Part shown: positions 24,477 to 44,435 of the stretch, piece by piece
How the letters are laid out: each line of letters opens with the position of its first letter
Numbering within the stretch: the stretch's first letter is position 1
From: Faecalibacterium duncaniae
Lineage (GTDB): Bacteria; Bacillota; Clostridia; Oscillospirales; Ruminococcaceae
Length of the DNA stretch: 64,000 bases
Assembly: GCF_010509575.1 (NCBI RefSeq)
Contig: NZ_CP048437.1
Coordinates: 1,798,001 to 1,862,000 of the forward strand
Reading direction: 5' to 3'
Translations under genes and position numbers: made by a program
The notes under the pieces: generated by a model
Databases searched by the model: none
Told to the model about the DNA's origin: nothing
Seen by the model: only the letters and a program-made list of their open reading frames with translations

Positions 24477-24486
24477 AGGCTTCTCT

Positions 24487-24495: not shown

Positions 24496-24599
24496 TGTGT
24501 TTTTAACGTGTAATCAATCTTTTTCTCTACATATCCGTACCTCCATTCTACCATGTTGCCTTTCAGACCAACGAACTTCTGAAGTTCACTTTCCTTCCG

Positions 24600-25405: not shown

Positions 25406-25434
25406 TTGATGTTTGTGCCTGTCTGTGGTAGAAT
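25406..25434 (+). promoter_or_regulatory. Sigma-70-type promoter of the helicase/methylase operon
   Basis: TTGATG (25406) and TAGAAT (25429) are separated by exactly 17 bp and lie 60 bp before the first gene of the five-gene operon. No other promoter as good is seen up to 42.4 kb. Confidence 0.6.
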
Positions 25435-25496
25435 AATGATAATTATACTCTTATATGTATATCTCGGAAAATCATAAAAAGCAGGGAGATTTCAAA

Positions 25497-28340
25497 ATGA
25501 CAGATTATGCACCTGGTATGCGTGCTGTTATTCGTGACGAAGAATGGCTCATCAAAAGGATCGAAACAAACAGCCTTGGTCATCAAGTTTTACATTGCGT
25601 CGGTGTCACCCCACTAGTGAAAGATCGCGATGCCATTTTTCTCACAGATCTCGAACAGATTCAGATTGTAGATCCTGCGAGCATTCAGTTGATTGCCGAC
25701 TCATCCCCATTTTTCAAACGGTCACTATTGTATTTAGAAAGTCAATGGCGGCAGCAGCTTCCCACCGACACAAATTTGCATATTGGCCACAAAGCGGCTA
25801 TGGATCCCATGCCATACCAACTGGATCCTGCAAAACTTTCTTTGCAGCGTCCACGTCAGCGCATTCTAATTGCTGATACTGTCGGTCTTGGCAAAACTCT
25901 AGAGGCCGGCATTCTGATGTCTGAGTTAATTGCACGTGGTAAGGGCAAGCGAATTTTAGTTGTTACAGTAAAAAGCATGATGACGCAGTTCCAAAAAGAA
26001 ATGTGGAATCGCTTTACTATTCCGCTCGTGCGGCTGGATTCCAACCGAATCCAAAAGATCCGCGCCAGTCTGCCCTCCAATTACAATCCCTTCTTTTACT
26101 ATGATAAAACGATCGTTTCCATTGACACCTTAAAACGCGATGTGGAATACCGTACACACTTGGAAAAAGCATATTGGGACATTATCGTCATTGATGAAGC
26201 GCAGAATGTTGCCGAGCGCGGTGACCATCAGGCACAGCGTTCTCGGCTTGCAAAACTGCTGGCCAACCGCAGTGATACCATGATCATGCTGTCGGCCACA
26301 CCGCACGATGGCCGTGCCAAAAGTTTTGCTTCCCTGATGAATATGCTGGACCCGACTGCCATTGCAGACCCTGAAAATTATACCCCGGAAGACATCAGGG
26401 GTCTGTGTATCCGCCGCTTTAAAAGCGATGTCAAAAATCAGGTCAACGGCTCGTTTCTTGAGCGGCAGGTGACATTGGAACATTGTCACGCCTCTGCACA
26501 GGAGGAATATGCCTTCGACCTGCTTGCTGAAATGCAGCTGGAAATGGATGCTGGCAAAGCCAAAAGCTCTGGACGTCTGTTCAAAACAAGCTTAGAGAAA
26601 TCTCTCTTTTCTAGCCCAGCAGCCTGTCGCAAAAGCATCGAGGCACGCCTGAAAAAGCTCTATAAAAAATATACGGCAGATGATATTTCTGATATTCGCT
26701 TGTTAGAAGAGTTGCATACTGCTCTGGGACAGGTCACGCCCGAAAACTTCACGCGCTATCAAAAACTGCTGGAACTTTTGCGTAGCGATTCCTACGGATG
26801 GAACCCCAAAGATCCTGGTGACCGCGTTGTGATCTTTACCGAGCGCATCGAAACCATGAATTATCTGGCGGAACATCTGCGGACTGATTTGGGGCTGAAG
26901 TCCTCTGCGATCCAAGAGATTTCTGGTGGTATGAGCGATGCAGAGCAGCAGCGCATTGTAGAAGATTTCGGCCGCACGGAATCTTCCACCCGCATTCTGG
27001 TCGCTTCGGATGTAGCTTCTGAAGGTCTGAATCTTCATTATCTGAGCCACCGCCTGATTCACTTTGATATTCCGTGGTCATTGATGGTATTCCAGCAGCG
27101 CAACGGCCGCATTGACCGTTACGGTCAGCAAAAACGCCCTGATATCCGCTATCTGCTCATTGAGAGCAATAACAAACAGATCAAAGGTGATATGCGTATC
27201 ATCGAGATTCTGATTCAAAAAGAAGAGCAGGCACTGAAAAATATCGGCGATCCTGCCTTACTGTTGGGCAAGTTCAATGTGGAAGAGGAAGAAACGGTGA
27301 TTGCGGAAGCCATCGAATCCGGTTCCGACGCAGATACATTTGCTCAGAGTCTAGATGCCGATGCGCAGGAATTCAACCCCTTTGAAGCTTTGATGGCCGC
27401 TGCCTCAGAAACAGAGGAGACTGCTATTGAGCAGCTTTCAGAAACTGTTTCCGACGAAACATTGTTCACCGATAAGGAATATCTGGAGCAAGCTGTGCAA
27501 TACCTTAATCAGACTGACAGCAATCCAGTTCAGGAACTGCAAACGGTTTCTGGCCTAGATATCCGGTTAACCCCGGAAATGGAGCGCCGTTTGCGTGCGC
27601 TTATACCGGAAGAAGCCATGCCGCAAGGAGAAACACTGCGCCTTTCGGATGACAAAGCCTTCTGCATGGAGCAGATGCGCACCAGCATGCAAAAGAACAT
27701 GGATGAGGCGGCATGGCCGTCCTCGCAGTATTTGTGGAAGCTGCACCCGATTTTCTCTTGGGTCAATGATAAGGCCGGGCTTTTGTTCAAACGCGCAGAA
27801 GCTCCCGTTCTGGGTCTGCCCGGCGTTTTGTATCCCGGTGAAGCGTTGTACATCGTTTCCGGCAGTGTTCCCAACCTGAAATCCACGCCGCTCATCGATG
27901 AATGGTTTGGTCTGCTGTATCGGGATGGGCAATTCATTCAGCGACTTTCCATGGAGGAGGTTGTCCAGAAAGCCGGACTGCGTAGCGCGCGTATTCCCAA
28001 CACAAACTGCATCACGAACCAAAGCATCGTTGCTGCAAGCAGCTTGTTGCACGATGTAGTCACGCAGGCAAAGACCTATCTCACAGAGCGATACCAGCAG
28101 TACCAGGCAGAGATGAACCCCAAGCTGGATGCAGAGGTGGATAAGCTGATTGAACTGCAGGAAAAACACAAGGAGTACTATCAGACCACCCTATTTGAAC
28201 ATGAACGTCAACTGCAGGAGCAGGAGCGCCGGGTGGACAAACTGTTTGATGATTTTACGAACTGGGTAAAAGAAACCCTGACGATTCAAAACAACCCATA
28301 TATTCGTATCGTATCCGTCCTGATGGGGGTATCCGAATGA
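25497..28340 (+). CDS. SNF2-type helicase, DrmD-like, first gene of a defence operon
   Basis: A 947-residue superfamily 2 ATPase of the SNF2/RapA kind. Walker A is 'TVGLGKTLEAG' (Lys ~134), motif II 'VIDEAQNV' (~235), motif III 'MLSATPHDG', and the second lobe ends with 'VFQQRNGRIDRYGQ' (motif VI). Helicases of this type (DrmD) open class 1 DISARM operons, where they stand next to a large adenine methylase as here. Start ATG 25497 follows AGGGAG at 9 nt; the earlier in-frame ATG at 25455 has no site. The stop overlaps the next start (ATGA). The C-terminal ~370 residues are acidic then helical and not recognised. It probably translocates on DNA to help tell phage from self DNA. Confidence 0.85.
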   Translation: MTDYAPGMRAVIRDEEWLIKRIETNSLGHQVLHCVGVTPLVKDRDAIFLTDLEQIQIVDPASIQLIADSSPFFKRSLLYLESQWRQQLPTDTNLHIGHKAAMDPMPYQLDPAKLSLQRPRQRILIADTVGLGKTLEAGILMSELIARGKGKRILVVTVKSMMTQFQKEMWNRFTIPLVRLDSNRIQKIRASLPSNYNPFFYYDKTIVSIDTLKRDVEYRTHLEKAYWDIIVIDEAQNVAERGDHQAQRSRLAKLLANRSDTMIMLSATPHDGRAKSFASLMNMLDPTAIADPENYTPEDIRGLCIRRFKSDVKNQVNGSFLERQVTLEHCHASAQEEYAFDLLAEMQLEMDAGKAKSSGRLFKTSLEKSLFSSPAACRKSIEARLKKLYKKYTADDISDIRLLEELHTALGQVTPENFTRYQKLLELLRSDSYGWNPKDPGDRVVIFTERIETMNYLAEHLRTDLGLKSSAIQEISGGMSDAEQQRIVEDFGRTESSTRILVASDVASEGLNLHYLSHRLIHFDIPWSLMVFQQRNGRIDRYGQQKRPDIRYLLIESNNKQIKGDMRIIEILIQKEEQALKNIGDPALLLGKFNVEEEETVIAEAIESGSDADTFAQSLDADAQEFNPFEALMAAASETEETAIEQLSETVSDETLFTDKEYLEQAVQYLNQTDSNPVQELQTVSGLDIRLTPEMERRLRALIPEEAMPQGETLRLSDDKAFCMEQMRTSMQKNMDEAAWPSSQYLWKLHPIFSWVNDKAGLLFKRAEAPVLGLPGVLYPGEALYIVSGSVPNLKSTPLIDEWFGLLYRDGQFIQRLSMEEVVQKAGLRSARIPNTNCITNQSIVAASSLLHDVVTQAKTYLTERYQQYQAEMNPKLDAEVDKLIELQEKHKEYYQTTLFEHERQLQEQERRVDKLFDDFTNWVKETLTIQNNPYIRIVSVLMGVSE

Positions 28341-31300
28341 GCATCGATCTAACCGGTATCACAAATAAAAACGAATATTATACCAACCACTATTTTTCGA
28401 CCATCTTTGAGGAAAATGCAGGTGAGGCCATCACTGCCTGGGCTCAGGCTGCAAAGTCATCCGAAGAGATCCGCACACCTTGGGCACAGCTGCGACAAAA
28501 CGCCCGACAGTTCTATCCCTTGCACGACCGCTACGCAGGCGGTGCATTGAATTTGCAGCTTCTGGCTGCGATTCGCACGATGGCAGACCGTTACCTGGCT
28601 TCTCTTGGGTATCCAGAAGCTGCCCCGGAACTTGTCCCTGTAGATGCTTCTCTGTCTGTTCCCGTTTATTTGGAAATGAAAAAGAGCAACGGTGCACCAC
28701 TGCTATGGGTCATGCTCTCTGCTTCCAGAGAATCGGATGCCGGTATTCTGGAAAGCAATGTCTTTGACGGTAACATTGCAGAGGAAGATGCCTTCGGTGC
28801 CGTCCACAACGATGACCTGCTGGAACTGAAAAATGAGGATCTTGCCACACAGATTCTGTTCGGTGCCGCAGAGCCGCCGCGTTTTCTTCTGTTTATTTCG
28901 CTGAATCAGATTGCACTGATTGACCGGAACAAATGGAGTGAAAAACGCTATTTGCAATTCGAATTAGAAGACATCTTTTCTCGCTTGGAACTCACAACCC
29001 TGCAAGCCATGGTCGTCCTACTGCATAAAGATTCCCTCTGCCCGGAAGACGGTTCTATTCTTCTAGATGAGTTAAACGAGCAGAGTCAGAAAAATGCTGC
29101 GGGTGTTTCACAGGATTTAAAATATGCCCTGCGTGAATGTATCGAACTTTTGGGCAATGAAGTCCTCCACGACATGCGAACCCGGCAGAAAATTAACCTA
29201 GAAGAGCATCCCGTGGATGCCGGACAGCTGACACTGGAGTGCCTGCGCTATATGTACCGGATGCTGTTCATACTGTTCATTGAGGCGCGGCCAGAATTGG
29301 GCTATGCTCCCATCCGTGAACTGAGTTATCTGAAAGGTTACTCGTTGGAAAGTCTGCGGGATATCGCCGACGCTGTCCGAGATGATGTGGATGAAGTGAG
29401 CGATGGCTATTATCTACATGAAACGCTGGCAAAACTTTATGACCTGATTTATAACGGTTATCCGGAAACGGAAGCCGAATTTCAAAAAGTAACCGGTGCC
29501 GACAGTATACACGATGTTTTTTTGATTGCTCCGCTCATGGCGCATATCTTTGACCCGGAGTACACCAAGTTGATCAATGCTACCAAACTGCGCAACAGCT
29601 GCATGCTGCGTTTTATCGACTTAATGAGCCTGACACGTGCCTCCGGCAAACGCAATAGCCGCCGGGGGCGTATTTCCTACGCCAATTTGGGCATCAACCA
29701 AATGGGCGCGGTATACGAAGCTCTGCTCTCCTACCGTGGCTTTATCGCACAGCAGGATTTATACGAGGTCAAACGCGCCGGAGTTGACTTCAATGAACTG
29801 GATGTCGGCTATTTTGTTTCTGAATCTGATTTGGCACAATATACAGAAGAGGAACGCGTCCGCTATGCGTCTGGCAACAAAAAGGGCAAGTTGCGCATGT
29901 ATGCCAAAGGCACATTCATCTACCGCTTGGCTGGCCGCGAACGGGAAAAATCCGCTTCTTACTATACGCCGGAAGTTCTAACCAAATGCCTTGTCAAATA
30001 TGCCCTGAAGGAATTGCTGAAAGACAAATCTGCGGATGACATTCTGCATCTAACCATTTGTGAACCTGCCATGGGCAGCGCAGCATTCTTGAATGAAGCG
30101 ATCAATCAGCTTGCAGAAGCCTATATTTCTCGTAAAGAGCAGGAAACCGGAGAGATCATTGGCTACGAAGACCGCTTTAACCAGCTGCAGAAGGTCAAAA
30201 TGTTTATTGCGGACCGCAATGTATACGGCGTTGACCTGAACCCTGTGGCCGTGGAACTGGCCGAGGTTTCTCTGTGGCTGAACACCATTTATCCTAATGG
30301 ATTTGTGCCGTGGTTCGGTACCCAGCTGGTCAACGACAATTCCCTGATTGGTGCCCGGCGGCAGTGCTACCGCGTGAGTTCCCTGCAAGCCACCAGCAAA
30401 GGTCTGCGCTGGTATGAAAAAGCCCCGGAGCGTGTTCCCCTTGGCACCGAGCGCAAGCGCGGCAAGTTGTCCACACAAATCTATCATTTTCTGTTGGGCG
30501 ACCCCGGTATGTGCAGTTATACCGACAAAGTCATCAAACAGCTGGAGCCTGCAAAAATCAAGTTTTTGAACACCTGGAACAAGGCATTTACTGCTCCTTA
30601 CTGTGACGATGATATCGAAACGCTGAAAAAACTCTCCAAGACGATTGACAAGCTCTGGAAAGATCAGATTTCTCTGCGTCAGCAACTGAAGCAGCAGACG
30701 CACGACAGCCTGTCTGTGTTCAAATTCAATGATGATGAACCGGACTCCCATACTTCCATGCGCACCAAAGATCAGATGCTGCGCACCATGTACCGTTCCG
30801 AGAATGCCAAAAATGCTGGTGCTTATGCTCGTTTAAAATTTGCGATGGATTACTGGTGCGCCCTGTGGTTCTGGCCCATTGACAAGGCTGATCTTTTGCC
30901 CAGCCGCAGCGAATTTCTGAATGATATGTACATGATCTTGGTGGGGCTGTACTCCACCAACAGTGATTCCCAGCAGCTTTCCATGCTAGAAGATGCAGAC
31001 GAAGAAGATACTGACATCCTGCTTCAGGTCAACTTGGACGAACTGTGCGCCCTTTTGCCCCGGCTGAAGCTGGCTCGCACGATTGCACAGCAAAATCACT
31101 TTATGCATTGGGAACTGGAGTTTGCCGATGTGTTTGCCGAGCGCGGCGGTTTTGACCTGATGATCGGTAACCCGCCGTGGATCAAGATCGAGTGGAACGA
31201 ACAGGGCGTGCTGGCGGATGCCAATCCCATGTTTGCTGTAAAAAAACTGACCGCTACCCAGACCACCCACGAACGGCAGACGGCACTGGAAAATGCACAT

Positions 31301-33106
31301 ACGCACAGCATGTATTTTGCAGAGTATGAAATGCTTTCCGGCGAACAGAACTTTTTGAACGCCGTGCAGAATTATCCTGCCCTGAAAGGACAGCAAACGA
31401 ATCTGTTTAAATGTTTTCTTCCACTCTCGTGGGAGAAAACGAATGAAAGCGGCATTGCCGCTTTCGTACACCCTGAGGGCGTCTACGACGACCCGAAGGG
31501 TGGTGCACTTCGGGAAATGCTGTATCCTCGTTTGCGATATCATTTTCAATTTGCAAACGAGAGAAAGCTATTTTCCGAAGTGCACCACCATACACAATTT
31601 AGTCTAAATGTGTATGGTGGTCCACTGATGGTGTCATTCGACACCATCAGTAACCTCTACGATGCTAAAAGCATCGCAGAGTGTTACCAAGGCGAAGCCT
31701 CCGCGCCGATTCCAGGCATCAAGGATGCCAATGGCGACTGGAATACTACCGGCCACCCTGACCGCATCATCCATGTCACGCAGCGCGAGTTGGAAGTTTT
31801 TGCCAAATTGTTTGATGGAAATGATAAATGGCAGCAAGCACGATTGCCGCAACTGCATGTTGAGCAACTCCTTGAAGTATTGATCCGTTTTTCGAAGCAA
31901 AACAAGGTTATCGGAGATATGCAACTTTCCATTTTTAATACTCGTATGTGGGAAGAAACTGGTTCACAAAAAGATGGAACAATTTCCAGATATGTCCATT
32001 TCCCTGATAGCACAGTGGACGCCATTATTTCCGGTCCTCACATTGGTGTATCAAATCCATTGTTCAAATCTTCTCGTAGTATCTGCAAATTAAATAGCGA
32101 CTATGATAATATTGATTTGACAAATATTTCTTCCAACTATATCCAGCGCGTAAATTACACTCCCTTCTGTAGCATTGACGATTATTTTCTACGTGAACCT
32201 AAAACCTATTGGGACACTTCTTATCATGAAGAATATCGCCTAGTAATGCGTCGGATGTTAAATCAGGGTGGAGAACGGACTTTGATTTCCGCTCTTCTTC
32301 CTCCAGGAATGGGACATATTCACACCATCTTCGGTCTTGCAGTTTCCGATAAGAATATAATCAGTTTGCTTGCTGCCACATTTTCCTCGATTCCTTTTGA
32401 TTTCTATGTGAAATCAACTGGAAAGTCAGACATTTTGTTCGATTTGGCTTCAAAACTTCCTCTATTAAACGAATCAATTTTTGCTCTGTCTATGTCAGAA
32501 CGTAGTTTACTCTTAAACTGTGTAACCAATCATTACGCTAACCTTTGGAAAACTTGCTTTGATACGTCTTTTACTCACAGTACCTGGTCCAAATCCGACC
32601 CTCGCCTTTCCCCTACTCGCTTTACTTCTTTGACCCCGGAGTGGACATGGGACACACCCCTGCGCACAGACTATGAACGGCGGCAGGCTTTGGTAGAAAT
32701 TGATGTACTTACCGCCATGGCACTGGGCATGACCCTGCAGCAGCTCAAGACCATTTACCGCATCCAATTCCCGGTACTGCAGAGCTATGAGGCCGATACT
32801 TGGTATGATGCCAACGGCCGCATCACCTTTACCAATAACCGCAGCCTGACCGGTGTAGGCTTCACCCGCCCGGAGTGGGAAAATGCCGGTGCTGTGCAGC
32901 CAATCAAGCGCGGCGATGCTCCATGGGACGGTATTATGAAGCATGCTCCGGCCGGTTATGTGTTTGCCCGTACCATTACGGATGACACCATGCCTGGCGG
33001 CCCGGTACAGCACACTATAGAATACGCCGCTCCCTTTGACCGCTGTGACCGGGAGCAGGATTACGAAACTGCGTGGAAGTTCTTTGAGGAAAAGTATAAA
33101 GAATAA
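28337..33106 (+). CDS. Very large adenine-specific DNA methyltransferase (DrmMI/PglX-like)
   Basis: A 1589-residue protein of the COG1002/Eco57I type. The SAM motif is 'CEPAMGSAAFLNEAI' (about residue 574) and the catalytic motif IV 'IGNPPWIKIEW' (Asn ~945), with a long insertion between them. The first ~500 residues look like the helical front part of PglX/DrmMI/type IIL enzymes and have no clear PD-(D/E)xK nuclease that I can see. The last ~500 residues would read the target; part of this stretch (about 31.9-32.6 kb) is more AT-rich than the rest, as expected for an exchanged recognition domain. It probably marks self DNA. It starts in the ATGA overlap with the helicase. Confidence 0.85.
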   Translation: MSIDLTGITNKNEYYTNHYFSTIFEENAGEAITAWAQAAKSSEEIRTPWAQLRQNARQFYPLHDRYAGGALNLQLLAAIRTMADRYLASLGYPEAAPELVPVDASLSVPVYLEMKKSNGAPLLWVMLSASRESDAGILESNVFDGNIAEEDAFGAVHNDDLLELKNEDLATQILFGAAEPPRFLLFISLNQIALIDRNKWSEKRYLQFELEDIFSRLELTTLQAMVVLLHKDSLCPEDGSILLDELNEQSQKNAAGVSQDLKYALRECIELLGNEVLHDMRTRQKINLEEHPVDAGQLTLECLRYMYRMLFILFIEARPELGYAPIRELSYLKGYSLESLRDIADAVRDDVDEVSDGYYLHETLAKLYDLIYNGYPETEAEFQKVTGADSIHDVFLIAPLMAHIFDPEYTKLINATKLRNSCMLRFIDLMSLTRASGKRNSRRGRISYANLGINQMGAVYEALLSYRGFIAQQDLYEVKRAGVDFNELDVGYFVSESDLAQYTEEERVRYASGNKKGKLRMYAKGTFIYRLAGREREKSASYYTPEVLTKCLVKYALKELLKDKSADDILHLTICEPAMGSAAFLNEAINQLAEAYISRKEQETGEIIGYEDRFNQLQKVKMFIADRNVYGVDLNPVAVELAEVSLWLNTIYPNGFVPWFGTQLVNDNSLIGARRQCYRVSSLQATSKGLRWYEKAPERVPLGTERKRGKLSTQIYHFLLGDPGMCSYTDKVIKQLEPAKIKFLNTWNKAFTAPYCDDDIETLKKLSKTIDKLWKDQISLRQQLKQQTHDSLSVFKFNDDEPDSHTSMRTKDQMLRTMYRSENAKNAGAYARLKFAMDYWCALWFWPIDKADLLPSRSEFLNDMYMILVGLYSTNSDSQQLSMLEDADEEDTDILLQVNLDELCALLPRLKLARTIAQQNHFMHWELEFADVFAERGGFDLMIGNPPWIKIEWNEQGVLADANPMFAVKKLTATQTTHERQTALENAHTHSMYFAEYEMLSGEQNFLNAVQNYPALKGQQTNLFKCFLPLSWEKTNESGIAAFVHPEGVYDDPKGGALREMLYPRLRYHFQFANERKLFSEVHHHTQFSLNVYGGPLMVSFDTISNLYDAKSIAECYQGEASAPIPGIKDANGDWNTTGHPDRIIHVTQRELEVFAKLFDGNDKWQQARLPQLHVEQLLEVLIRFSKQNKVIGDMQLSIFNTRMWEETGSQKDGTISRYVHFPDSTVDAIISGPHIGVSNPLFKSSRSICKLNSDYDNIDLTNISSNYIQRVNYTPFCSIDDYFLREPKTYWDTSYHEEYRLVMRRMLNQGGERTLISALLPPGMGHIHTIFGLAVSDKNIISLLAATFSSIPFDFYVKSTGKSDILFDLASKLPLLNESIFALSMSERSLLLNCVTNHYANLWKTCFDTSFTHSTWSKSDPRLSPTRFTSLTPEWTWDTPLRTDYERRQALVEIDVLTAMALGMTLQQLKTIYRIQFPVLQSYEADTWYDANGRITFTNNRSLTGVGFTRPEWENAGAVQPIKRGDAPWDGIMKHAPAGYVFARTITDDTMPGGPVQHTIEYAAPFDRCDREQDYETAWKFFEEKYKE

Positions 33107-33136
33107 TAGGCCTATAATTTGATTGGAGGCATCAAG

Positions 33137-33970
33137 TTGTCCAAGAAAAAAGAATGTTCCAACCTTGAAACACGCACTATGAATGTCACCATGTCCCAAG
33201 ATGACTTCAAAAAATTAGATAGCGGTGAACTGCGCTCCAATCATGGACTCCGCGATAGTTCTGGTCATATTAAGGCTTCTCTTGATATTTCTTATATTTC
33301 AGAAAATGAACTTTCTCAACGTGAGGCAGTCCGCACGGAAACCGTATATAAAGAGTCTCCTGTCTCATCCCCCATGGCGCAGGCTCTTGTTCGTGCTACT
33401 GGAGCCACAATGGAAATTTGGGGTGACATCCTTAGCGACCCAGAAGTTAAAAAGTCCGTTTCTGACCTTATTCACGTACTCTGGCACTATAAAGTACAAC
33501 CAAAAATTCAAGATACTATTGATAGAATCAAAGGCATCTCACAACCGCAACCCCCTTTCTCTGAACAAGTTTTTCAAACAAAAGCAGAACAAATTCTATC
33601 TTCACAAACTATTGTTCCGGATTCAAAAGATACTTCATTTGAGCCTATTCCTGTCACAAATGAACAGGCTGCATTTTTGTTAGCCAAGACTAAAGAATCC
33701 GCATCCGAATTAACCCGATTGATTTATCTTCTTTCCAATATCGTAGTCAAGGATGATGTAACAGCCGAAGAATACAGTCTGGAGCAATCTTATATTAAAG
33801 AGTTGCTCAGTGAATCCTCTGTGTCAACGATGACTTTTCTTCTCCAAAATCGCCAACTTGGTATTATTGACGATAAAACTGCACTTCTTTTTTCTGATGT
33901 TCTTGAGGGATATGTCAGTGACGGTCAACAGCGCATTCCTCTCCCCATCGACAAGATATCCAATCAATAA
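33137..33970 (+). CDS. Unknown protein between methylase and giant helicase
   Basis: A 277-residue protein I cannot assign. It has no membrane segment and no known catalytic motif that I can find. The front is polar ('TMNVTMSQDDFKKLDSGELR'), the middle has short helical stretches, and the C-terminal half is helical and acidic. The TTG at 33137 is the likely start, 7 nt after GGAGG; another TTG at 33119 is in frame. It is 30 bp after the methylase and 20 bp before the helicase, so it is part of the operon and may be a small subunit or adaptor. It is AT-rich compared with its neighbours. Confidence 0.7.
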   Translation: MSKKKECSNLETRTMNVTMSQDDFKKLDSGELRSNHGLRDSSGHIKASLDISYISENELSQREAVRTETVYKESPVSSPMAQALVRATGATMEIWGDILSDPEVKKSVSDLIHVLWHYKVQPKIQDTIDRIKGISQPQPPFSEQVFQTKAEQILSSQTIVPDSKDTSFEPIPVTNEQAAFLLAKTKESASELTRLIYLLSNIVVKDDVTAEEYSLEQSYIKELLSESSVSTMTFLLQNRQLGIIDDKTALLFSDVLEGYVSDGQQRIPLPIDKISNQ

Positions 33971-33990
33971 TTATAGGAGTATATTGCGAT

Positions 33991-36900
33991 ATGTTACCCT
34001 CAATTCTTGCCAGCCAGCTTGAAAAAGGCATTGGTGATTACATCGAAACCACATTTCCTATGAGCAACGCTCCCTTCAAAGGTTCCGTTGCAGAAATGCT
34101 TGCTCAGAAGGGCTCTGTTTATCATGAGCCTTATCTTGCCGTGCGTCTGCCCTTCCGTATTGCAAAGGAAATGCCAACCTGCTTTGAGGCAATTCACCCT
34201 GCATATCTTCCCTATGTTCATCAGCAAAAAGCGTTTGAACGGCTGACTGGAAACGATGGTCGTTCTACATTGGTTGCCACCGGCACAGGCTCCGGCAAAA
34301 CTGAATGCTTCTTGTACCCCATTCTGGAATACTGTTACCAGCACCGTGGGGAGTCTGGCATCAAGGCACTGATTATTTACCCCATGAATGCCCTTGCCAC
34401 CGATCAGGCCAAGCGAATCGCAGAACTAATTCATAACAGCCCCGAATTGCGCGGCAATGTAACTGCCGGTATGTATGTTGGCGGTCTGGAACGCACTCCG
34501 TCCCGCACCATGAGTGAGCATGGCATCATTACTGACCACGAGACTCTGTTGAACAGTCCGCCGGATATCCTGCTAACCAACTATAAAATGCTGGACTATC
34601 TGCTTGTGCGCCCCAAAGATGCCCTGCTTTGGAAGCAGAATAATCCAGAAACGCTAAAGTACATTGCAGTGGATGAGCTGCATACCTTTGATGGTGCACA
34701 AGGCACCGACCTTGCCTGCCTGCTGCGCCGTCTCAAGCGCCGCCTTGGCATCTACGATGGGTATCTGTGCTGTATCGGCACCTCTGCTACCATGGGTTCC
34801 AAGGAAAATAACGGTGCCATCCTGAATTATGCCGAGGAGATCTTTGGCGAGCCATTTGAACGAGATGCCGTCATCACCGAGGATCGGCTCAGTGCCGATG
34901 AGTTTTTTGCTGGACAGTCGACCTCATTCTTTGCCTTGCCTTCCGCAGATCAGACTGCACAGCTGGTAGCTCTTGCCGAAGAGGACGATCCTTCCGCCTA
35001 TCTTCAGTGCGCGGTAAAGGCATGGTTCCCGGATTTTTCGCAGGACGTTCTATCCGACAGTGGCCGCATTGAACTGGGCCGGGTTCTTCTGCAGCATGTA
35101 TTCCTACAGTCTGTTCTGCACCTAACGGAGGGCAATTACTATCAGGTTTCCCGCATTGTGGAAGCGTTGGCACCACATTATCCGGCACTGAATGAATTAT
35201 CCGATGCTTCTGCTGTGCTCAACTCGCTCTTTGCACTGGTTTCTCATGCGCGCACCGGTAAGCCGCGAAAATTACGCCCGTTCCTGAATGTACAGGTGCA
35301 GCTTTGGATCCGGGAACTGCGGCGCATCGTTGCCAAGGTCGATGCGGAGCACATCACTTATAAAATTGCGCATGATCTGAACCGACAGCAGGCCAAACAG
35401 CACCTGCCCGTTGTCAACTGCCGTGACTGCGGCATCACCGGCTGGGTCACGATCCTGAACGAGCGTCAGAACGCTACCATTGTCAATCTTGAAGCGTTTT
35501 ACAACCAATATTTTAAAGCAGATGAAAAAGTCGTGATGCTTTTCCCTCATCCGCATGAAAATGTTCCCACCGGAATGCTGCCTGCACGCATCTGTCCAGA
35601 CTGCCTGCAGGTAAAACTGGGGATCGACGGCAGCAGCGAATGTGCCAGCTGCGGCACCCGCATGGTGGACATTCTGATTCCCAGTCCGATTCGGACAACC
35701 GGCCCGAAGCAGCATAAGCAGTACATCTGCCCCTGCTGCGGCAGCCGCCGGGGACTTTCTCTGATGGGTGTACGCAGTGCCACGGAGATCAGTGCCAGTA
35801 TTTCTCAAATGTTCGCTTCCCGCTTCAACGATGATAAAAAGACGCTTGCCTTTTCCGATAATGTGCAGGATGCTGCTCATCGCGCTGGATTTTTCAATTC
35901 CCGCACCTGGCGGTTTGGTCTGCGCACGGCAATTCAGCGTTATTGCGCAGAATGTGGTTCAGGTCAAAGCCTTGCTGATTTTCAGGCCGGGTTTGTGGAT
36001 TACTGGCACCTGCACATGACCGATGAAGAATTTGTCAGCTTTTTTATTCCGCCCAATCTAACCTGGAAGCGTGCATACGAAGAAATGACGCAAAATCGTA
36101 AGCTCAGCGATGACAAGCAGGCGCATATTTTGATGCATGAGATTGAGCAGCGCATCCAGTATGAAATCATGCTGGAATATGGTCTTACCAGTAAAATTGG
36201 ACGCACTCTGGAACGGTCGGCTTGCTCGGTTCTTTCCTTTTCTCCTGAGGATATTGAGCAGATTGCTGCAGCAGTCCAGCTGCGTGTTGTTAACGAACTG
36301 GGTATCATGTCTCGGGAAGACCGCATAATCTTTCAGCGCATGGTCATCGGTTGGCTGAATCTACTCCGGTGCAATGGTGCTTTTAAAGATGTTGTTTTTG
36401 ATGAGTACACCATCAATGATGGCAAAAGCTATATGCTTTCAAACGACCGCAATCGCTGGCTGCCCGGTCAACAATCCGGGCGTAATATTCCTCGTTTTAT
36501 AGCTGAATACCTTGGAAAAAGCCATCCTACTTCTGAGTTTGATTTACCATCTTCGCGCCGTTACACAGACTGGATTGCTTTCTGCTGCACAGAATCAATT
36601 CTTGACGAGCTCAATTTCCGTGCTATCAGCAAGCTGATTCTGGAAGAATCTGTGAAGAACGGCATTGTCGTATCTGTGCCTTCTTCCGCAAACTATAAAG
36701 TCTATGGCCTGAACAAGAGCCGTGTCTTCCTTACAAACGATGTTATCCAGCTGCGCTGCGAACATTGCGGTGCGGTGTATTCGTTTTCTGCCGAAAGCCT
36801 GCCGCTGTGGGAAAATGCGCCCTGTCCTCGGTCTGCCTGTGGCGGTAAACTTGTCGAATATAAATCATCCGGCATCAATTACTATGGCCGACTTTACAGC

Positions 36901-39900
36901 ACCGGCGATCTGGCGCGCATCAATGCACGGGAGCATACTGGCCTGCTGGAACGCCCAGATCGTGAGCAACTGGAGAAGGATTTTAAGCGTAGCAAGGAAA
37001 ATCGTTCCAACTGGGACCCCAATGTTCTCTCCTGTACCCCCACTTTGGAAATGGGTATTGATATTGGTGACCTTTCCACGGTCATCCTGTGCAGTATGCC
37101 GCCTGCACAAAGTCAGTTTCTGCAGCGTGTTGGCCGTGCCGGACGCAAAGACGGCAATGCTCTGACCTTGGCAATTGCAAATGCGCGGCCACATGACCTC
37201 TATTTTTACGCAGATCCTTTAGAGATGATCTCCGGTTCGGTCACACCACCAAAAATCTTCCTGCGCGCTTCCGCTGTATTGGAACGGCAGTTCATGGCTT
37301 TTTGCATGGATTCTTGGGTGCGGAAAGGCATTCCTGATGATGCTATCCCCGATAAGGTCGGTATTATTCTGAAGAAACTGGATGCGCGGCCTTCCGATAT
37401 GTTCCCTTTCAATTTTCTCAACTACGTGCAGAGTACACTTTCCCGGCAGATCAACTCTTTTGTCCAGATGTTTTCCGCTTATCTGGACGAAAGCTCCAAG
37501 GAAGAGCTGCAAATATTTGCCCGCGGCACTGGAACCACAGAAAGTTCCATGCACATTAAAATTCTGGATGCCTTTGAAAGTTTGAAGAAGCAGCAAAACA
37601 GCCTGCACAACAGTGTAAATTCCCTGAAGGTCATGATCCAGCAGCTGGAAAACAAGCCCAAAGACAGTTCTTACGACAAAGAGATCAAGGAACTAAAGGG
37701 CGAGGAAGCGGCCCTATTGACCGTTTTGCAGGAGATCAGCAAAAAGAACGTTTTCAACTTCTTGTCCGATGAGGGATTGCTGCCCAACTATGCTTTTCCG
37801 GAGGCTGGGATCATTCTGCGGGCGGTTCTCTACCGAAAGTCCGATGAGGAACTTCCGTCTGTCCGAAAAAAGTATGAAAAGCTCGTCTATGAATACAACC
37901 GCTCCGCTTCCTCTGCCCTCAGTGAGTTTGCACCGAGCAACAGTTTCTATGTGGATGGTCGCAAACTGACGATCGATCAGGTAGACCTGACAACTGCTCA
38001 GAGTGCCCTTTGGCGTCTGTGTCCAAACTGCTCTCATGCGCAGCTTGAAACAGCTGGCCGGAACACAGCAGCCTGTCCTCAATGCGGAAGCCCCGCTTGG
38101 GCCGATTCCGGTCAGATGCGCAACATGCTGAAAGTGCAGATGGTCTACTCTAACATGGACTACGCCAAGAGCTTGATTAGTGATGAAAGCGACGACCGCT
38201 CTAATATCTTTTATTGCAAGCAGCTCCTTGTAGACGTAGATGAGGACCACGACATCTCCTGTGCCTATCGCATGGACAATGAGGAATTTCCCTTTGGTTA
38301 CGAATTTGTCCGTAAAGCAACGCTGCGGGAGATCAACTTTGGCGAGAGTGACCTGACAGGTGAAAAGTTATCGATTTCTGGTGTCGAGGAAGTGCGCAAA
38401 GGGTTCCGGATCTGCAAATATTGTGGTAAAATTCAGACTGACAGCAAGCCGAATAACCACAGCTATTCCTGTAAGACACGCAAAATCCCTGCGCTCTCAC
38501 AGGCCGATGCCTATGAAGAATGTCTGTTTCTGTATCGTGAATTCAGCACAGAGGTTCTCCGACTTCTGATTCCCGCTACGACGATGGACTCTTCTTCCGT
38601 CCGGATGGAATCCTTTGTTGCGGCCTTCATGCTTGGTATGAAAGAATATTTTGGCAATGTCGATCACCTCCGGGCTGCTGTCAGCGAAGTACCCGTCCCG
38701 GATGCCGACTATCGCAAACAGTATCTCGTGATCTACGATTCGGTTCCCGGCGGCACGGGATATCTGAAGCAGTTGATGCATGAAAAAGATTCTTTGATTC
38801 AGATTTTTGAAAAAGCCCTTCATGTTATGGAAACCTGCTCCTGCAAAGACGATCCGCAGAAGGACGGCTGCTATCATTGCCTATATGCGTATCGCCAGAG
38901 CCAGCAGATCGGTAATATTTCGCGTGCAACTGCCATTCGGCTGTTGAAAACGATTCTTTCCGGTAAAGACCATATCCAAAAAATCGATATGATCAGCAGT
39001 ATTCCTGTAAACCCGCTGTTTGAAAGCGAATTGGAATCGCGCTTTTGGGAAGCGATCCGTCTAAAAGTTGGTGCTGCAAATATCAGTGACACCGTAAGAA
39101 ACGGAAAACACAGTTATTATCTCAAACTGGAGCACTCTGCTTGGGAACTTGAACCTCAGGTTTCACTGGGTCCAAGCAACGGTGTATCCGTTCCCTGTAA
39201 ACCAGATTTTGTGTTCTGGCCCGTAGCCGCGCCCGGACACAAGCCCCTAGCGGTGTTTACGGACGGCTTCCTATATCACAAGGATATCGTTTCCGATGAC
39301 ACCATCAAACGTGAAGCACTCCGCCGCAGTGGGCAGTTCCGGGTCTGGTCCCTGAGTTTTAAGGATGTTCAGAACGTTTTTACCCCGCAGGGGGATTACG
39401 CCACTTCTGTTTTAGCGGTCGAAAAAATGCCGCTCGGCAAGGTGATGTACCGTTCCGAAGTACGAAAGCTCCATGCAGAGGTACTTGATCCTGTAAAGCT
39501 CTCTGCGTTTGACCTCTTGATTGCCTACCTGAATCTGCCGGATGCCGAAACGATCTTCCACGCACAGGCACACGCTTATGCACTTTCTCTGCTGGATCCG
39601 GCATTCATCAAGAACAATGCGGCATTCGATCAATGGCATCAGGTCTTTCAGGATGTGAACGATCAACTGCATTTTACAGATTCCAGTTTCCGCTTTGGGC
39701 TGACCGCTTATGGAGCGTGGGTCCCTCGTGCTGTAAATTCTCATCTGGCTCTCTATGCAGGCATTTCCGCTGCATCCATGAAAGCAGATGGTGCTGTTAC
39801 CGTCTTTGCCGTCCTGAACGATGACAAGAACAGCCGCACAGATAAATACGAACCGGAGTGGAACGGTTTCTGGCAGTTTTTCAATCTGATGCAGTTTGCC

Positions 39901-40311
39901 TCAGAATTTGCTGCCGTTTCTTCTACCGGGCTCAGGCGCATGGACTATCTCGCACTTCCTGTTTCCCAGAGCAGCTGTTCTTCGGCGGAAGCCTCTTCCA
40001 CACCCGATTCCGGATGGAATTCCATCGGTGAATTGCTATTTGACGAAGATGCGAAAGCATTCGCTGCCTTGGCACAGAAAAGCGGTATCCCAGCACCTGC
40101 TGAAGATTTCATTGGATTTGAGGCAGCTGGTGCAGATGGAAATGTCATCGCAACGATTGAAATTGCTTGGCCGGACAAGAAATTGGGATTTATGACTTTT
40201 GAACAGTCCATTGATCGAGAAAAGATGGAGCATCTCGGCTGGAAAATATACACCGCAGCCGATCTATCTGGTCTTGATTTAAGCAATCTATTGGGAGGAA
40301 AGAACGTATGA
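33991..40311 (+). CDS. Giant DEAD helicase with DUF1998 and nuclease-like tail (DrmA-DrmB / DruE-like)
   Basis: A 2106-residue Lhr/MrfA-like protein. Order: Walker A 'ATGTGSGKTECFLYP' (~100), 'VDELHTFDGAQGTD' (motif II, ~227), 'IGTSATMGS', several CxxC zinc ribbons (~470-590), 'AFSDNVQDAAHRAGFF', 'PTLEMGIDIGDL' and 'FLQRVGRAGRKDG' (motif VI, ~1047), a coiled coil (~1180-1230), then DUF1998 with 'YDSVPGGTGYL' (~1582) and 'DGCYHCLYAYRQ' (~1625). Last comes a restriction-like fold candidate 'CKPDFVFWP...PLAVFTDGFLYH' (~1735-1765). DISARM splits the first two parts into DrmA and DrmB; DruE of Druantia joins them. The last 300 residues are not recognised. It is the likely effector motor/nuclease. 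Confidence 0.85.
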   Translation: MLPSILASQLEKGIGDYIETTFPMSNAPFKGSVAEMLAQKGSVYHEPYLAVRLPFRIAKEMPTCFEAIHPAYLPYVHQQKAFERLTGNDGRSTLVATGTGSGKTECFLYPILEYCYQHRGESGIKALIIYPMNALATDQAKRIAELIHNSPELRGNVTAGMYVGGLERTPSRTMSEHGIITDHETLLNSPPDILLTNYKMLDYLLVRPKDALLWKQNNPETLKYIAVDELHTFDGAQGTDLACLLRRLKRRLGIYDGYLCCIGTSATMGSKENNGAILNYAEEIFGEPFERDAVITEDRLSADEFFAGQSTSFFALPSADQTAQLVALAEEDDPSAYLQCAVKAWFPDFSQDVLSDSGRIELGRVLLQHVFLQSVLHLTEGNYYQVSRIVEALAPHYPALNELSDASAVLNSLFALVSHARTGKPRKLRPFLNVQVQLWIRELRRIVAKVDAEHITYKIAHDLNRQQAKQHLPVVNCRDCGITGWVTILNERQNATIVNLEAFYNQYFKADEKVVMLFPHPHENVPTGMLPARICPDCLQVKLGIDGSSECASCGTRMVDILIPSPIRTTGPKQHKQYICPCCGSRRGLSLMGVRSATEISASISQMFASRFNDDKKTLAFSDNVQDAAHRAGFFNSRTWRFGLRTAIQRYCAECGSGQSLADFQAGFVDYWHLHMTDEEFVSFFIPPNLTWKRAYEEMTQNRKLSDDKQAHILMHEIEQRIQYEIMLEYGLTSKIGRTLERSACSVLSFSPEDIEQIAAAVQLRVVNELGIMSREDRIIFQRMVIGWLNLLRCNGAFKDVVFDEYTINDGKSYMLSNDRNRWLPGQQSGRNIPRFIAEYLGKSHPTSEFDLPSSRRYTDWIAFCCTESILDELNFRAISKLILEESVKNGIVVSVPSSANYKVYGLNKSRVFLTNDVIQLRCEHCGAVYSFSAESLPLWENAPCPRSACGGKLVEYKSSGINYYGRLYSTGDLARINAREHTGLLERPDREQLEKDFKRSKENRSNWDPNVLSCTPTLEMGIDIGDLSTVILCSMPPAQSQFLQRVGRAGRKDGNALTLAIANARPHDLYFYADPLEMISGSVTPPKIFLRASAVLERQFMAFCMDSWVRKGIPDDAIPDKVGIILKKLDARPSDMFPFNFLNYVQSTLSRQINSFVQMFSAYLDESSKEELQIFARGTGTTESSMHIKILDAFESLKKQQNSLHNSVNSLKVMIQQLENKPKDSSYDKEIKELKGEEAALLTVLQEISKKNVFNFLSDEGLLPNYAFPEAGIILRAVLYRKSDEELPSVRKKYEKLVYEYNRSASSALSEFAPSNSFYVDGRKLTIDQVDLTTAQSALWRLCPNCSHAQLETAGRNTAACPQCGSPAWADSGQMRNMLKVQMVYSNMDYAKSLISDESDDRSNIFYCKQLLVDVDEDHDISCAYRMDNEEFPFGYEFVRKATLREINFGESDLTGEKLSISGVEEVRKGFRICKYCGKIQTDSKPNNHSYSCKTRKIPALSQADAYEECLFLYREFSTEVLRLLIPATTMDSSSVRMESFVAAFMLGMKEYFGNVDHLRAAVSEVPVPDADYRKQYLVIYDSVPGGTGYLKQLMHEKDSLIQIFEKALHVMETCSCKDDPQKDGCYHCLYAYRQSQQIGNISRATAIRLLKTILSGKDHIQKIDMISSIPVNPLFESELESRFWEAIRLKVGAANISDTVRNGKHSYYLKLEHSAWELEPQVSLGPSNGVSVPCKPDFVFWPVAAPGHKPLAVFTDGFLYHKDIVSDDTIKREALRRSGQFRVWSLSFKDVQNVFTPQGDYATSVLAVEKMPLGKVMYRSEVRKLHAEVLDPVKLSAFDLLIAYLNLPDAETIFHAQAHAYALSLLDPAFIKNNAAFDQWHQVFQDVNDQLHFTDSSFRFGLTAYGAWVPRAVNSHLALYAGISAASMKADGAVTVFAVLNDDKNSRTDKYEPEWNGFWQFFNLMQFASEFAAVSSTGLRRMDYLALPVSQSSCSSAEASSTPDSGWNSIGELLFDEDAKAFAALAQKSGIPAPAEDFIGFEAAGADGNVIATIEIAWPDKKLGFMTFEQSIDREKMEHLGWKIYTAADLSGLDLSNLLGGKNV

Positions 40312-42404
40312 CAACTGCAAAAGTCGCAATTTCCGCTGATTTTTTGACGGCCTTTGCACACCTTCCCCGTCAGGTGCAGGGCAAAGTTACCGAACTTGTC
40401 AACAAATTCCGGAATGACCCTGCTTCGCCGGGAATTCACTACGAAAAGATAAACTCTTGTATCGATAAAAAAATATATTCCATTCGTATCGATGATACCT
40501 ACCGCGGCATTGTCGTTCGTCAATCCGAAGTTTATCTGCTTTTATGGGTCGATCATCACGATGAGGCCTACCAGTGGGCCGCCCGAAAACGCTGTGAAGT
40601 AAACCCGAACACCGGTTCACTTCAGGTTTTTGATGTACAAACGGTTTCCGAACCGATCGCAGCACACAGTCAGCCGCTTCTGTTTTCTGCTTTCAAAGAC
40701 GCGGATCTGCTTCGGCTGAGTGTTCCTGAAGCGCTGCTGCCTTATGTCCGCAGCTTTGAAACAAAAGAACAGTTTTATCAGGCGCGATCTTCCTTCCCGG
40801 CAGATGCATACGAATATCTCGCCTGGCTTGCAGAAGGCTTTTCCATGGAAGAAGTTCTGGAACTTGCCAACGAAGAATGCAATACCTCTCCCGCAGCACA
40901 GGATTTGTCGGCAGCATTGGAACAGCCCATTACCATGCGGTCCTTTGTCGTCGTGGAAGGGGAAGACGAACTGCGCCGCATCATGGCTGCACCGCTTGAA
41001 AAATGGCGTGTTTTTTTACATCCGGCTCAGCGAAATCTGACGCAGAAAAATTACTCTGGCCCTGTTCGTGTTCTGGGTGGTGCAGGAACGGGAAAAACGG
41101 TTGTCGCTCTGCACCGCGCTAAATATCTGGCATCTCAATGCACCGGGCAGCAGCGTATTCTTTTTACGACCTATACGGCGAACCTCGCTGCAGATATTCA
41201 GGAAAATCTCCGCAAGATCTGCTCGATCGAGGAACTACGCAAAATTGAAGTCATTCATCTTGACGCATGGGTCAGCCGCTTTATGCGCGAGTCCGGCTTT
41301 TCTTTCCAGATCGGCTACGATGACGCCTTGGCTCCTATATGGGAAAAGGCGCTCTTTCTTGCAAACACGGAACTGCCTTACGACGTTTCTTTTTATCAGG
41401 AAGAATGGAATCGGGTCGTGATTTCACAGGAAGCGATTACGCGTGACCAATATCTGAAAGCCTCCCGAAACGGCCGCGGCACACGGCTGGACCGCAGAAA
41501 GAGGCTTCTTGTATGGCAGGTTCTGGACAACTACCAAAATCTGATGAAAGAGCATCAGATCCGCGACATCAATACTGCCATGTATGAGTGCACAAAACTT
41601 TTACAGGGCAGCAGTGTAAAGTCGCAGTATACCCATATCATTGTAGACGAAGGACAGGATCTAAGCGATATCGCATATCGCCTGATTCGTGCTCTGGCCG
41701 GCCCGGAACACGCAAACGATCTTTTTATCGTGGGTGATGCGCATCAGAGGATCTATCGGAATCGGCCTATCTTATCGAAATGCGGTATCAATGTCCGCGG
41801 CCGAAGCAGTATTTTAAAGATCAACTATCGCACCACAGAGGAGATTCGGCATAGTGCATTCTCCTTCTTAGAGGGCCTCTCTTTTGACGATTTGGATGAA
41901 AGTACCGATAGCGGAACCCAATGCCAATCTTTGACCCACGGAGAACCTCCTATCATTCGGAATTTCCCGGATGCAAACGCAGAATTCAACTTCATTTATA
42001 CTGAAATCCGGAAGCTACAAAATTCTGGTATTTTGCTAAAGGAGATTTGCATCGTTGCGCGTACAAAGAACCTTACAAACGATTATCTGTCCCTGCTGAC
42101 AAAGGCCAGCATCCGTTCTTACGCAATCAAACGGAATCAACCTGACAATCGAAACTTTGATGGAATTCGTGTCGCAACCATGCATCGTGTGAAGGGGCTC
42201 GAATTCAAATACGTCTTTATTGCTGCCCTCAATCACCGCGTTGTTCCTCTAGCTGCTGCCATCAATCACATGGATCCAATCTCCGAAAAAGAATCCATCA
42301 CATCCGAAAAATGTCTGCTTTATGTGGCTATGACACGCGCGCAAAAGGGAGTTTACATCACAAGCTATGGTACTTGCTCTCAGTTCCTACATCAATCTGA
42401 CTGA
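40308..42404 (+). CDS. UvrD-like helicase with N-terminal RelE/ParE-like domain
   Basis: A 698-residue superfamily 1 helicase. Residues 1-~100 ('FLTAFAHLPRQVQGKVTELV ... YSIRIDDTYRGIVV') have the pattern of RelE/ParE-fold toxins. The helicase follows: 'LGGAGTGKTVVALHRAKY' (Walker A, ~257), 'IIVDEGQDLSD' (~446), 'VGDAHQRIYRNR', 'VATMHRVKGLEFKYVFI' and 'LLYVAMTRAQ'. It lacks the long 2B insertion of full UvrD. The start overlaps the stop of the giant helicase (ATGA), so it is co-translated. Similar fusions are known from defence islands; here it may unwind or process DNA cut by the complex. Whether the toxin-like domain is active cannot be told. Confidence 0.85.
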   Translation: MTTAKVAISADFLTAFAHLPRQVQGKVTELVNKFRNDPASPGIHYEKINSCIDKKIYSIRIDDTYRGIVVRQSEVYLLLWVDHHDEAYQWAARKRCEVNPNTGSLQVFDVQTVSEPIAAHSQPLLFSAFKDADLLRLSVPEALLPYVRSFETKEQFYQARSSFPADAYEYLAWLAEGFSMEEVLELANEECNTSPAAQDLSAALEQPITMRSFVVVEGEDELRRIMAAPLEKWRVFLHPAQRNLTQKNYSGPVRVLGGAGTGKTVVALHRAKYLASQCTGQQRILFTTYTANLAADIQENLRKICSIEELRKIEVIHLDAWVSRFMRESGFSFQIGYDDALAPIWEKALFLANTELPYDVSFYQEEWNRVVISQEAITRDQYLKASRNGRGTRLDRRKRLLVWQVLDNYQNLMKEHQIRDINTAMYECTKLLQGSSVKSQYTHIIVDEGQDLSDIAYRLIRALAGPEHANDLFIVGDAHQRIYRNRPILSKCGINVRGRSSILKINYRTTEEIRHSAFSFLEGLSFDDLDESTDSGTQCQSLTHGEPPIIRNFPDANAEFNFIYTEIRKLQNSGILLKEICIVARTKNLTNDYLSLLTKASIRSYAIKRNQPDNRNFDGIRVATMHRVKGLEFKYVFIAALNHRVVPLAAAINHMDPISEKESITSEKCLLYVAMTRAQKGVYITSYGTCSQFLHQSD

Positions 42405-43760: not shown

Positions 43761-44435
43761 ATGATTAAAATCAATAAAGGTATTGAGCCTGTAGAGCTTA
43801 CGAAATACAAACAACAGCCTAATGCATCCTACCGAGATATGCATGGTGCTCCCTCAGGAAAAAGTAATTCCGATGGAACTCCCATCGATGTTTATACTAT
43901 AGTTCTGAATCGTCTAATTCAGGAACAAGGGTGTATTTGTGCTTATTGCATGTGTCGAATTCCAGAAAAAGGAAAGAAAGCAACGATTGAGCATATTGAC
44001 CCACAGAGTGCCACTTCTGAAGAGAAAGCCTTAGATTATCGGAACATGCTTGCTGTATGTAATGGAAATCGTGATGCTCACAATGACAAAGAAAAATCCT
44101 GCGATGCACATCGCAAAAATGCTCCTTTAAGCGTCAATCCATTAAAATCAGATACATTATCTTCTCTCAAATATCTATCCAATGGCGAAATAACTGCCTC
44201 TGACGATGCTATTAAGAAAGACCTCTGTGATACTCTCAATCTAAACTGCTCAGAAAGACGCATCCCGGAAAACAGAAAGGCCGCCTTAACTGCATACCTT
44301 CGTGTCTTTGTCGCCAAACATCCCACCGGCGATATTAAAGAATCTTGCCGACGGGAGTTAGAGAAATATCAACAGGAATCACCCAAAATGCCATACGTTG
44401 GTATTATTTTGGATTGGCTTACTCGCCATACATAA
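43761..44435 (+). CDS. ptuB: Septu HNH nuclease PtuB (TIGR02646-like)
   Basis: A 224-residue HNH endonuclease. The pattern is 'CICAYCMCRIPEKGKK', 'TIEHIDPQS', 'YRNMLAVCNGNR' and 'KSCDAHRKNAPL', which gives the Cys-x2-Cys pair, the catalytic His in the IEH motif, the Asn and the second zinc Cys/His. This is the usual signature of PtuB and the TIGR02646 family. The C-terminal ~90 residues are helical. It probably cuts phage or tRNA/DNA when released by PtuA. The start is 9 bp after ptuA. Confidence 0.85.
   Translation: MIKINKGIEPVELTKYKQQPNASYRDMHGAPSGKSNSDGTPIDVYTIVLNRLIQEQGCICAYCMCRIPEKGKKATIEHIDPQSATSEEKALDYRNMLAVCNGNRDAHNDKEKSCDAHRKNAPLSVNPLKSDTLSSLKYLSNGEITASDDAIKKDLCDTLNLNCSERRIPENRKAALTAYLRVFVAKHPTGDIKESCRRELEKYQQESPKMPYVGIILDWLTRHT

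Follow-up and report, generated by a model that had tools for sequence, protein, structure and literature searches.

The DNA analyzed here (hereafter the window) is a 64,000-nucleotide stretch of the Faecalibacterium duncaniae genome (contig NZ_CP048437.1, positions 1,798,001 to 1,862,000). It contains five consecutive genes, four of which are, judged by sequence, a canonical ARMADA type II defense operon. The fifth, which we call X, lies between armB and armC. We are fairly confident of the joint reading that the operon is ARMADA type II and that X lies embedded in a genuine slot. The locus would then be a known system with a variant feature, X and its slot, that appears to be unreported.

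The five open reading frames (ORFs; listed at 100 amino acids [aa] or more) are all on the forward strand, at 25455-28340, 28337-33106, 33137-33970, 33991-40311, and 40308-42404. The tight spacing described in an earlier note on this DNA was confirmed, with 4-base ATGA overlaps at 28337 and 40308 and gaps of 30 bp and 20 bp flanking the 277-aa gene. So were the five components, which by Pfam are, in order, SNF2/Helicase_C; Eco57I/N6_Mtase; none; DEAD, Helicase_C, and MZB (DUF1998); and UvrD. Because homologues of the first ORF align from residue 15 and a Shine-Dalgarno-like GGGAGA motif precedes the ATG at 25497, armA probably starts there and not at 25455. Thus placed, armA (25497..28340, +) would encode a RapA/BrxHII/DrmD-like SNF2 helicase of 947 aa (961 aa from 25455). 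It is followed by armB (28337..33106, +), encoding a PglX-like adenine methyltransferase of 1589 aa (PADLOC PDLC03614, 899 bits; Eco57I, N6_Mtase). The armB-armC slot then spans 884 bp from the armB stop to the armC start (33107..33990, +) and holds X (33137..33970, +), an embedded accessory gene of an unannotated family with a guanine-plus-cytosine (GC) content of 0.404. Beyond it lie armC (33991..40311, +), for a YprA-family DEAD helicase of 2106 aa with MZB/DUF1998, and armD (40308..42404, +), for a GajB-like UvrD helicase of 698 aa. A promoter had also been claimed for the operon. The site is present (TTGATG-17-TAGAAT, 25406..25434, +), but it is unproven as a promoter because 16 such sites occur in the region against 24.2 expected by shuffling.

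Identity of the core genes

ARMADA type II was described in a preprint of September 2025 (Bell et al. 2025, PMC12458937), the text of which gives the operon as ArmA-ArmB-ArmC-ArmD in strict order. There, ArmA is RapA/SNF2-like, ArmB is a PglX-like methyltransferase, ArmC is a YprA-like helicase that carries DUF1998 and has a nuclease tail of Vsr type, and ArmD is a UvrD protein with an N-terminal RelE-like domain. Inserts of BrxA-like, beta-barrel zinc, MarR-like, and helix-turn-helix (HTH) coiled-coil type are also described in ArmC (PMC12458937). The window keeps this order on one strand, with X splitting the B-C junction without altering it. For comparison, we used an Escherichia coli operon (L024) that encodes WP_000937974.1, the preprint's ARMADA II ArmC representative. 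All four window proteins matched their L024 counterparts at 38-47% identity across nearly the full length (identical/aligned residues: ArmA, 437/939; ArmB, 735/1548; ArmC, 781/2031; ArmD, 314/693).

The preprint text reports that the E. coli ARMADA II acts against 13 of 80 phages, that every gene is required, and that cells survive; among eight motif mutants, six abolish protection and two weaken it (PMC12458937). Every one of the eight mutated residues, two in each protein, is conserved in the window. From E. coli to window, these are K136/D236 to K147/D247 in ArmA (961-aa numbering), G605/N971 to G580/N945 in ArmB, K110/D234 to K103/D228 in ArmC, and K266/D454 to K263/D447 in ArmD. The ArmB pair includes the N of NPPW.

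The MZB (DUF1998) domain of window ArmC scored 49.5 bits against a cut-off of 24.2. Its tail has six residues (E1682, D1739, D1758, H1763, D1770, and R1774) that are PD-(D/E)xK-like and invariant across 16 proteins, and residues ~1680-1794 (39028..39372, +) are a probable PD-(D/E)xK nuclease domain. In a structure model of the tail built from 6 sequences, the first domain matched restriction-type enzymes, Vsr included, at middling Z. A sequence-profile search of solved structures gave no relevant match for this tail and Foldseek gave nothing significant, so the more specific Vsr label rests on the preprint (PMC12458937). In ArmD, the N-terminal region (residues ~1-100), called RelE-like in ARMADA II, ranked YoeB first in a profile search of solved structures, though weakly (E 0.035), and it is 52% identical to the same region of ArmD from another E. 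coli operon (L002). Among 50,697 phage records, ArmC had 2 weak matches, neither covering over 80% of the protein.

The earlier note had proposed an undescribed defense system between DISARM and Druantia. The PADLOC (2.0.0) check suggested with that claim, run on seven proteins (the five operon ORFs plus PtuA and PtuB), gave scattered best models that would suit novelty: DrmD (326 bits), type IIG (899), none for X, DruE (386), and NERD-UvrD/GajB (121/118). However, the four core genes and their order are those of the published ARMADA type II, whose named ArmC shows homology to the window protein along its length. The proposal was rejected for four of the five genes on the basis of PMC12458937, and we now regard it as highly improbable. 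What survives of it is one operon, a defense system, and an intermediate position, for the preprint names ARMADA a missing link between DISARM and Druantia (PMC12458937). Only one of the two genes then counted as extra is so, the 277-aa gene, the RelE/UvrD gene being the standard ArmD. A known subtype accordingly lists four of the five components.

A slot between armB and armC

We compared 23 ARMADA II loci, which came from genome searches, plasmids, E. coli, named genomes, and viral contigs. One or two cargo genes lay between armB and armC in 11 of them. There was no cargo between armA and armB (0/23; longest gap, 61 bp) or between armC and armD (0/20; longest gap, 35 bp). These differences were significant by Fisher test (B-C versus A-B, P = 1e-4; B-C versus C-D, P = 2e-4), also with three enterobacterial loci counted as one (B-C versus A-B, P = 8e-5). 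Occupied slots were concentrated in the window's ArmC clade, at 9 of 13 versus 2 of 10 elsewhere (P = 0.026). This clade comprises 12 rows of the ArmC tree, which contains ARMADA II-like proteins only, plus L005, itself not on the tree. At E 1e-100 or better, ArmC was scarce in the genomes searched. It occurred in 3 of 394 genomes of an order, 3 of 398 of a phylum, and 6 of 180 of one family, and in 1/130, 1/18, and 1/9 genomes in further searches, each count including a genome already known to carry it.

Excluded from the 23 were L013 (contig begins inside armC), L020 (order C-D-A-B), L044 (armB disrupted), L004 and L049 (armB not in view), L074 (E. coli, with an IS3-family element near the armC start), and L017 (weak X match). 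Extracts of loci counted elsewhere, or of L013, were also left out (L001, L006-L010, L012, L016, L028-L034, L040-L042, L046-L048, and L067), as were pieces of the L005 genome (L068-L071, where L068 is a second, partial ArmC-like stretch), flanks (L072 and L073), and distant ArmD homologues (L050-L066). The same applied to plasmid matches in Tsukamurella, Haematobacter, Martelella, Streptomyces, and further E. coli and Klebsiella.

The cargo is varied. X occupies the slot in the window and in L027, and a remnant of it in L005 is accompanied by an SLFN_AlbA_2 gene with HATPase_c_4, a relative of which (79% identical) in L025 sits with a 466-aa protein without annotation. M36A-like proteins of 460 aa (L011) and 491 aa (L014) matched PADLOC PDC-M36A weakly, at 23.5 and 24 bits, the latter alongside Abi_2/AbiD. 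The remaining loci carry DUF3644 with an EC042_2821 nuclease-like domain (L036; PDC-S19, 435 bits), PIN (L038, barely over cut-off), PDDEXK_2 (L039), a MoxR-like gene (L003, barely over cut-off), and TmtA (838 bits) with DUF932 (L045). TmtA is presumably the Tiamat protein, and we take the PDC names to stem from an embedded-defense study. All-against-all BLAST (E 1e-3) joined only the M36A-like, Schlafen-type, and X pairs, giving 11 groups. Judged by these matches, several cargo genes (AbiD, PDC-S19, TmtA, and Schlafen) are of defense type. All 15 cargo genes are oriented with the operon, and all 15 have a GC content below that of armB in their own locus.

The content of the slot differs between neighbors on the ArmC tree: X in the window versus M36A-like in L011, X in L027 versus none in L026 and L035, M36A-like plus Abi_2 in L014 versus DUF3644 in L036, and PIN in L038 versus PDDEXK_2 in L039. 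A Nostoc locus (L003, MoxR-like) and an Aulosira locus (L018, no cargo) show the edges of such a change. From the armC start onward they share 97.6% identity over 8.6 kb, and upstream they are 88.5% identical as far as the last few codons of armB; they differ between that point and the armC start. The cargo is therefore inside a host defense operon and absent or replaced in close relatives, as in an embedded gene. Two of the operons examined are irregular. L035 has a shortened armC with no armD match downstream, and L015 has armD in two reading frames; these are either decaying ARMADA II operons or assembly errors.

Such a slot could instead be a neutral tolerance spot at the seam of an A-B and a C-D module, filled by chance with cargo that has no joint function. 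The core does look like rearrangeable pairs. On a Cylindrospermopsis plasmid (L020) the order is armC-armD-armA-armB, contrary to the "strict order" of type II; type I ARMADA is described in the preprint text with the A-B pair before or after C (PMC12458937); and an insert at the B-C seam breaks no pair. Chance filling sits poorly, however, with cargo that includes AbiD, PDC-S19, TmtA, Schlafen, PIN, and PD-(D/E)xK genes, with its uniform direction, and with the recurrence of the Schlafen-type gene in two operons. We consider the neutral explanation unlikely.

Protein X and an exchangeable segment of ArmB

Protein X had no Pfam, PADLOC, or NCBIfam match. A single-sequence search listed 42 proteins, the window's own included, and a profile search raised the number to 88 (E up to 1); no Pfam domain was precomputed for any of them. 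With 45 family members as queries, any one PHROG matched at most 2 of them and any one Pfam family at most 4, with E values never better than 0.003. There was no solved relative (best E, 0.18), and Foldseek gave no match reaching E 0.001. The gene is rare in the genomes searched. It was found in 1 of 297 genomes of the window's family, the window itself, and in 2 of 391 of its class, the second being a weak match (E 2.8e-4). The named genome collection yielded 1 locus, and the family of that locus 1 of 175 genomes, the same one. Among candidate stretches of viral contigs, a relative of X was found in 0 of 41 with an 8-sequence profile and in 1 of 166 with a 45-sequence profile.

Wherever its context is visible (3 loci and 1 chimeric protein), X adjoins armB. 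It lies between armB and armC in the window and in L027 and between armB and the Schlafen-type gene, decayed, in L005, while P0087 is an ArmB-like C terminus joined to the C-terminal half of X. P0076, P0087, and P0089 are X-family proteins fused with foreign sequence, a pattern that recombination of the slot within X could produce. The earlier note named homologues occurring apart in most genomes as a refutation of its proposal, and this holds in part: 20 of the 23 loci have no trace of X in the slot, but X itself always sits beside armB where this can be seen.

This constancy raises the alternative that ARMADA II has a Clostridia type with five subunits, in which X is no passenger but a genuine component, such as an ArmB-ArmC adaptor. 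Its four contexts, its tight spacing, and a family of tens of proteins would fit. On the other side, L026 and L035, which are close to the L027 operon, have no gene in the slot, and in L005 X has decayed with armA and armB open and the Schlafen-type gene at its 3' end. Furthermore, the X proteins of the window and L027 are 36% identical, against 58-72% for ArmA-ArmD, and the GC content of X is below that of the core genes. A subunit role is, in our view, rather doubtful. Our guess is that X is a sensor or effector beside ARMADA rather than part of its core.

A second variable part lies upstream of the slot. In four close pairs of loci (L027/L035, L027/L026, L026/L035, and L003/L018), ArmB residues 1-900 are 81-99% identical per 100-residue bin, identity falls to 27-67% over residues 901-1400, and it returns to 79-97% after residue 1500. 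Two E. coli operons (L002 versus L024) are 98-100% identical in ArmB to residue 1000 and then 76-93%, with one bin at 33%; at the DNA level, these enterobacterial armB genes show two low-identity blocks. Alleles of the second block are unevenly spread in E. coli. One occurs in 312 genomes, a Klebsiella allele in none, and another at full length in 2 genomes, with 34 more below 80% (30% in the rows listed). A conserved armB end of ~260-290 bp separates the variable part from the slot (DNA of L027 versus L026 and L035). With limits borrowed from relatives, the corresponding segment of the window is 31037..32536 (+; residues ~901-1400). By analogy with other methyltransferases, it is likely an exchanged target-recognition part.

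These features suggest how the operon might work. ArmB would methylate a short sequence picked by the exchangeable segment, marking self DNA. The ArmA, ArmC, and ArmD motors would act on unmarked phage DNA, which the ArmC nuclease tail would cut. Recombination between the conserved armB 3' and armC 5' flanks would swap cargo within one transcript; X and other cargo would provide a second, backup layer of defense, probably when a phage blocks or evades ARMADA. Taken alone, we see the backup role as about evenly balanced. More tentatively, the operon could be a two-cassette platform, in which the ArmB segment sets the self sequence and a cargo bay a few hundred base pairs downstream carries a guard that fires when ARMADA is blocked, X being the founding family of ARMADA-specific guards. 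We rate this as less likely than not.

Several observations weigh against these interpretations. Twelve slots are empty, which shows the cargo to be dispensable, and beyond the window's clade just 2 of 10 hold a gene. The count rests on 23 loci, of which three are closely related enterobacterial ones, and L005 is cut by a contig end (in that genome, armC is on another contig beginning 386 bp before the armC start, so that the operon is seen in two pieces). A 1,200-bp query of the E. coli junction matched 518 genomes, 514 of them with a place covering at least 80%. The junction was a single uninterrupted piece in 39 of 40 among the matches listed, and the fortieth (L074) had its IS3-family element and no cargo; this reading relies on the 40 listed rows because the search tool joins pieces. 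The GC gap is small for some cargo (L027 X, 0.470; armB, 0.479). X has no recognized domain, its structure model is poor (pLDDT 61.7), and its occurrence only beside ARMADA genes would suit a dedicated partner no less than free cargo. As for ArmB, identity does not fall cleanly in the more distant pairs window/L011 and L014/L036, and "methylation," "TRD," and "recognition domain" are absent from the main text of PMC12458937. Finally, ArmD D454N and ArmB G605A, the two weakened E. coli mutants, lose activity only partly (PMC12458937).

If our reading is right, armB-armC junctions are a place to find new defense genes, with the 277-aa family, the 466-aa protein of L025, and the M36A-like proteins as candidates. 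The exchangeable ArmB segment would likewise make self/phage discrimination by sequence-specific methylation directly testable, as in restriction systems.

Surroundings and known systems

The operon stands among other defense genes. The type I restriction-modification genes and the Septu pair claimed for the neighborhood are present, and the "Abi gene" probably refers to the AbiJ_NTD4 protein encoded between hsdM and hsdS. Directly 3' of armD lie ptuA (Septu ATPase; 42498..43751, +) and ptuB (Septu HNH nuclease; 43761..44435, +). They begin ~90 bp past armD with their own Shine-Dalgarno-like motif and a GC content near 0.41 (42498-44435); we treat them as neighbors of the operon. PADLOC scored them at 409 bits (PtuA1) and 198 bits (PtuB1), and both fell under NCBIfam cut-offs (273 versus 500 bits and 94 versus 150 bits). 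The ptuA start was set by the Shine-Dalgarno motif and ATG and by profiles beginning at residue 21 of a longer ORF. ATPase and HNH pairs are listed among BREX backup effectors in the text of PMC12839542.

Upstream, the type I restriction operon (11141-18487) itself carries two embedded genes, an AbiJ_NTD4/PDC-S32 gene between hsdM and hsdS (13039-13953) and, between hsdS and hsdR, an ORF of 466 aa that matches ApeA_NTD1 faintly and below cut-off (15228-16628). Mobile-element genes are also found upstream (5304-10834 and 20011-24677), including MobA/MobL relaxase, VapE-like, large serine recombinase, IS110-type transposase, and DUF927/Cch genes, and the defense island may have arrived on a mobilizable element. 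For the tRNA-Ala gene (45149-45222) as an island end, a search of the rest of the window for 14-base direct repeats matching its 3' end region found none. Separately, distant ArmD homologues (31-32% identical) on viral contigs (L050, L061, and L063) lie near a related-looking non-Arm protein of 930-949 aa, and because of this adjacency RelE-UvrD proteins may serve another system too. Among ORFs of 200 aa or more, L050, L054, L061, L062, and L063 had no ArmB or ArmC match, and L054 had a weak ArmA match.

Compared with class 1 DISARM, the window shares an SNF2 helicase, an adenine methylase, and a YprA helicase with DUF1998. It differs in having no separate DrmB, no DrmC seen, and an additional UvrD gene; among the seven proteins scanned, PADLOC and Pfam gave no match to a separate drmB or to the drmC PLD nuclease, in keeping with the absence of drmC noted earlier. 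A fusion of drmA and drmB does not describe the locus, for a one-piece helicase is usual among YprA proteins and DISARM is the split case, according to the text of PMC12458937. ArmC is far better as DruE (386 bits) than as DrmA (65 bits). That likeness to Druantia, whose DruE is its top PADLOC model, stops there. The window has an SNF2 helicase and a methylase in place of other Dru proteins, none of which appeared in the PADLOC match lists of the remaining six scanned proteins.

Against ARMADA type II, the likeness extends to the four genes and their order, the eight mutated residues, the nuclease-like ArmC tail, and the ArmD N-terminal extension. The difference is X, since the text consulted of PMC12458937 describes no gene between armB and armC. 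In the ARMADA literature found, supplements lying outside the search, neither cargo at this place nor an exchangeable ArmB segment is described; the available text of PMC13192584 mentions ARMADA twice.

BREX operons offer similar genes. Schlafen proteins with a kinase-like ATPase and winged HTH, PIN, HEPN, and PD-(D/E)xK proteins are described there as auxiliary or backup effectors (PMC12839542). The host operon differs, being BREX, and ARMADA, DISARM, Druantia, and UvrD are absent from the main text of that article.

Type I restriction loci resemble the window in having a second defense gene inside the operon of a first. Embedded defense genes in these loci were reportedly the subject of a 2024 preprint by Payne et al. 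Examples in the texts consulted are DarTG2 between hsdS and hsdR (PMC12255303) and PrrC and others (PMC12629846). Here, in contrast, the host is ARMADA II, the site is always armB-armC in the loci compared, and the X family is absent from the libraries searched. If our reading holds, the embedding of defense genes reaches the DISARM/Druantia branch, beyond type I restriction and BREX.

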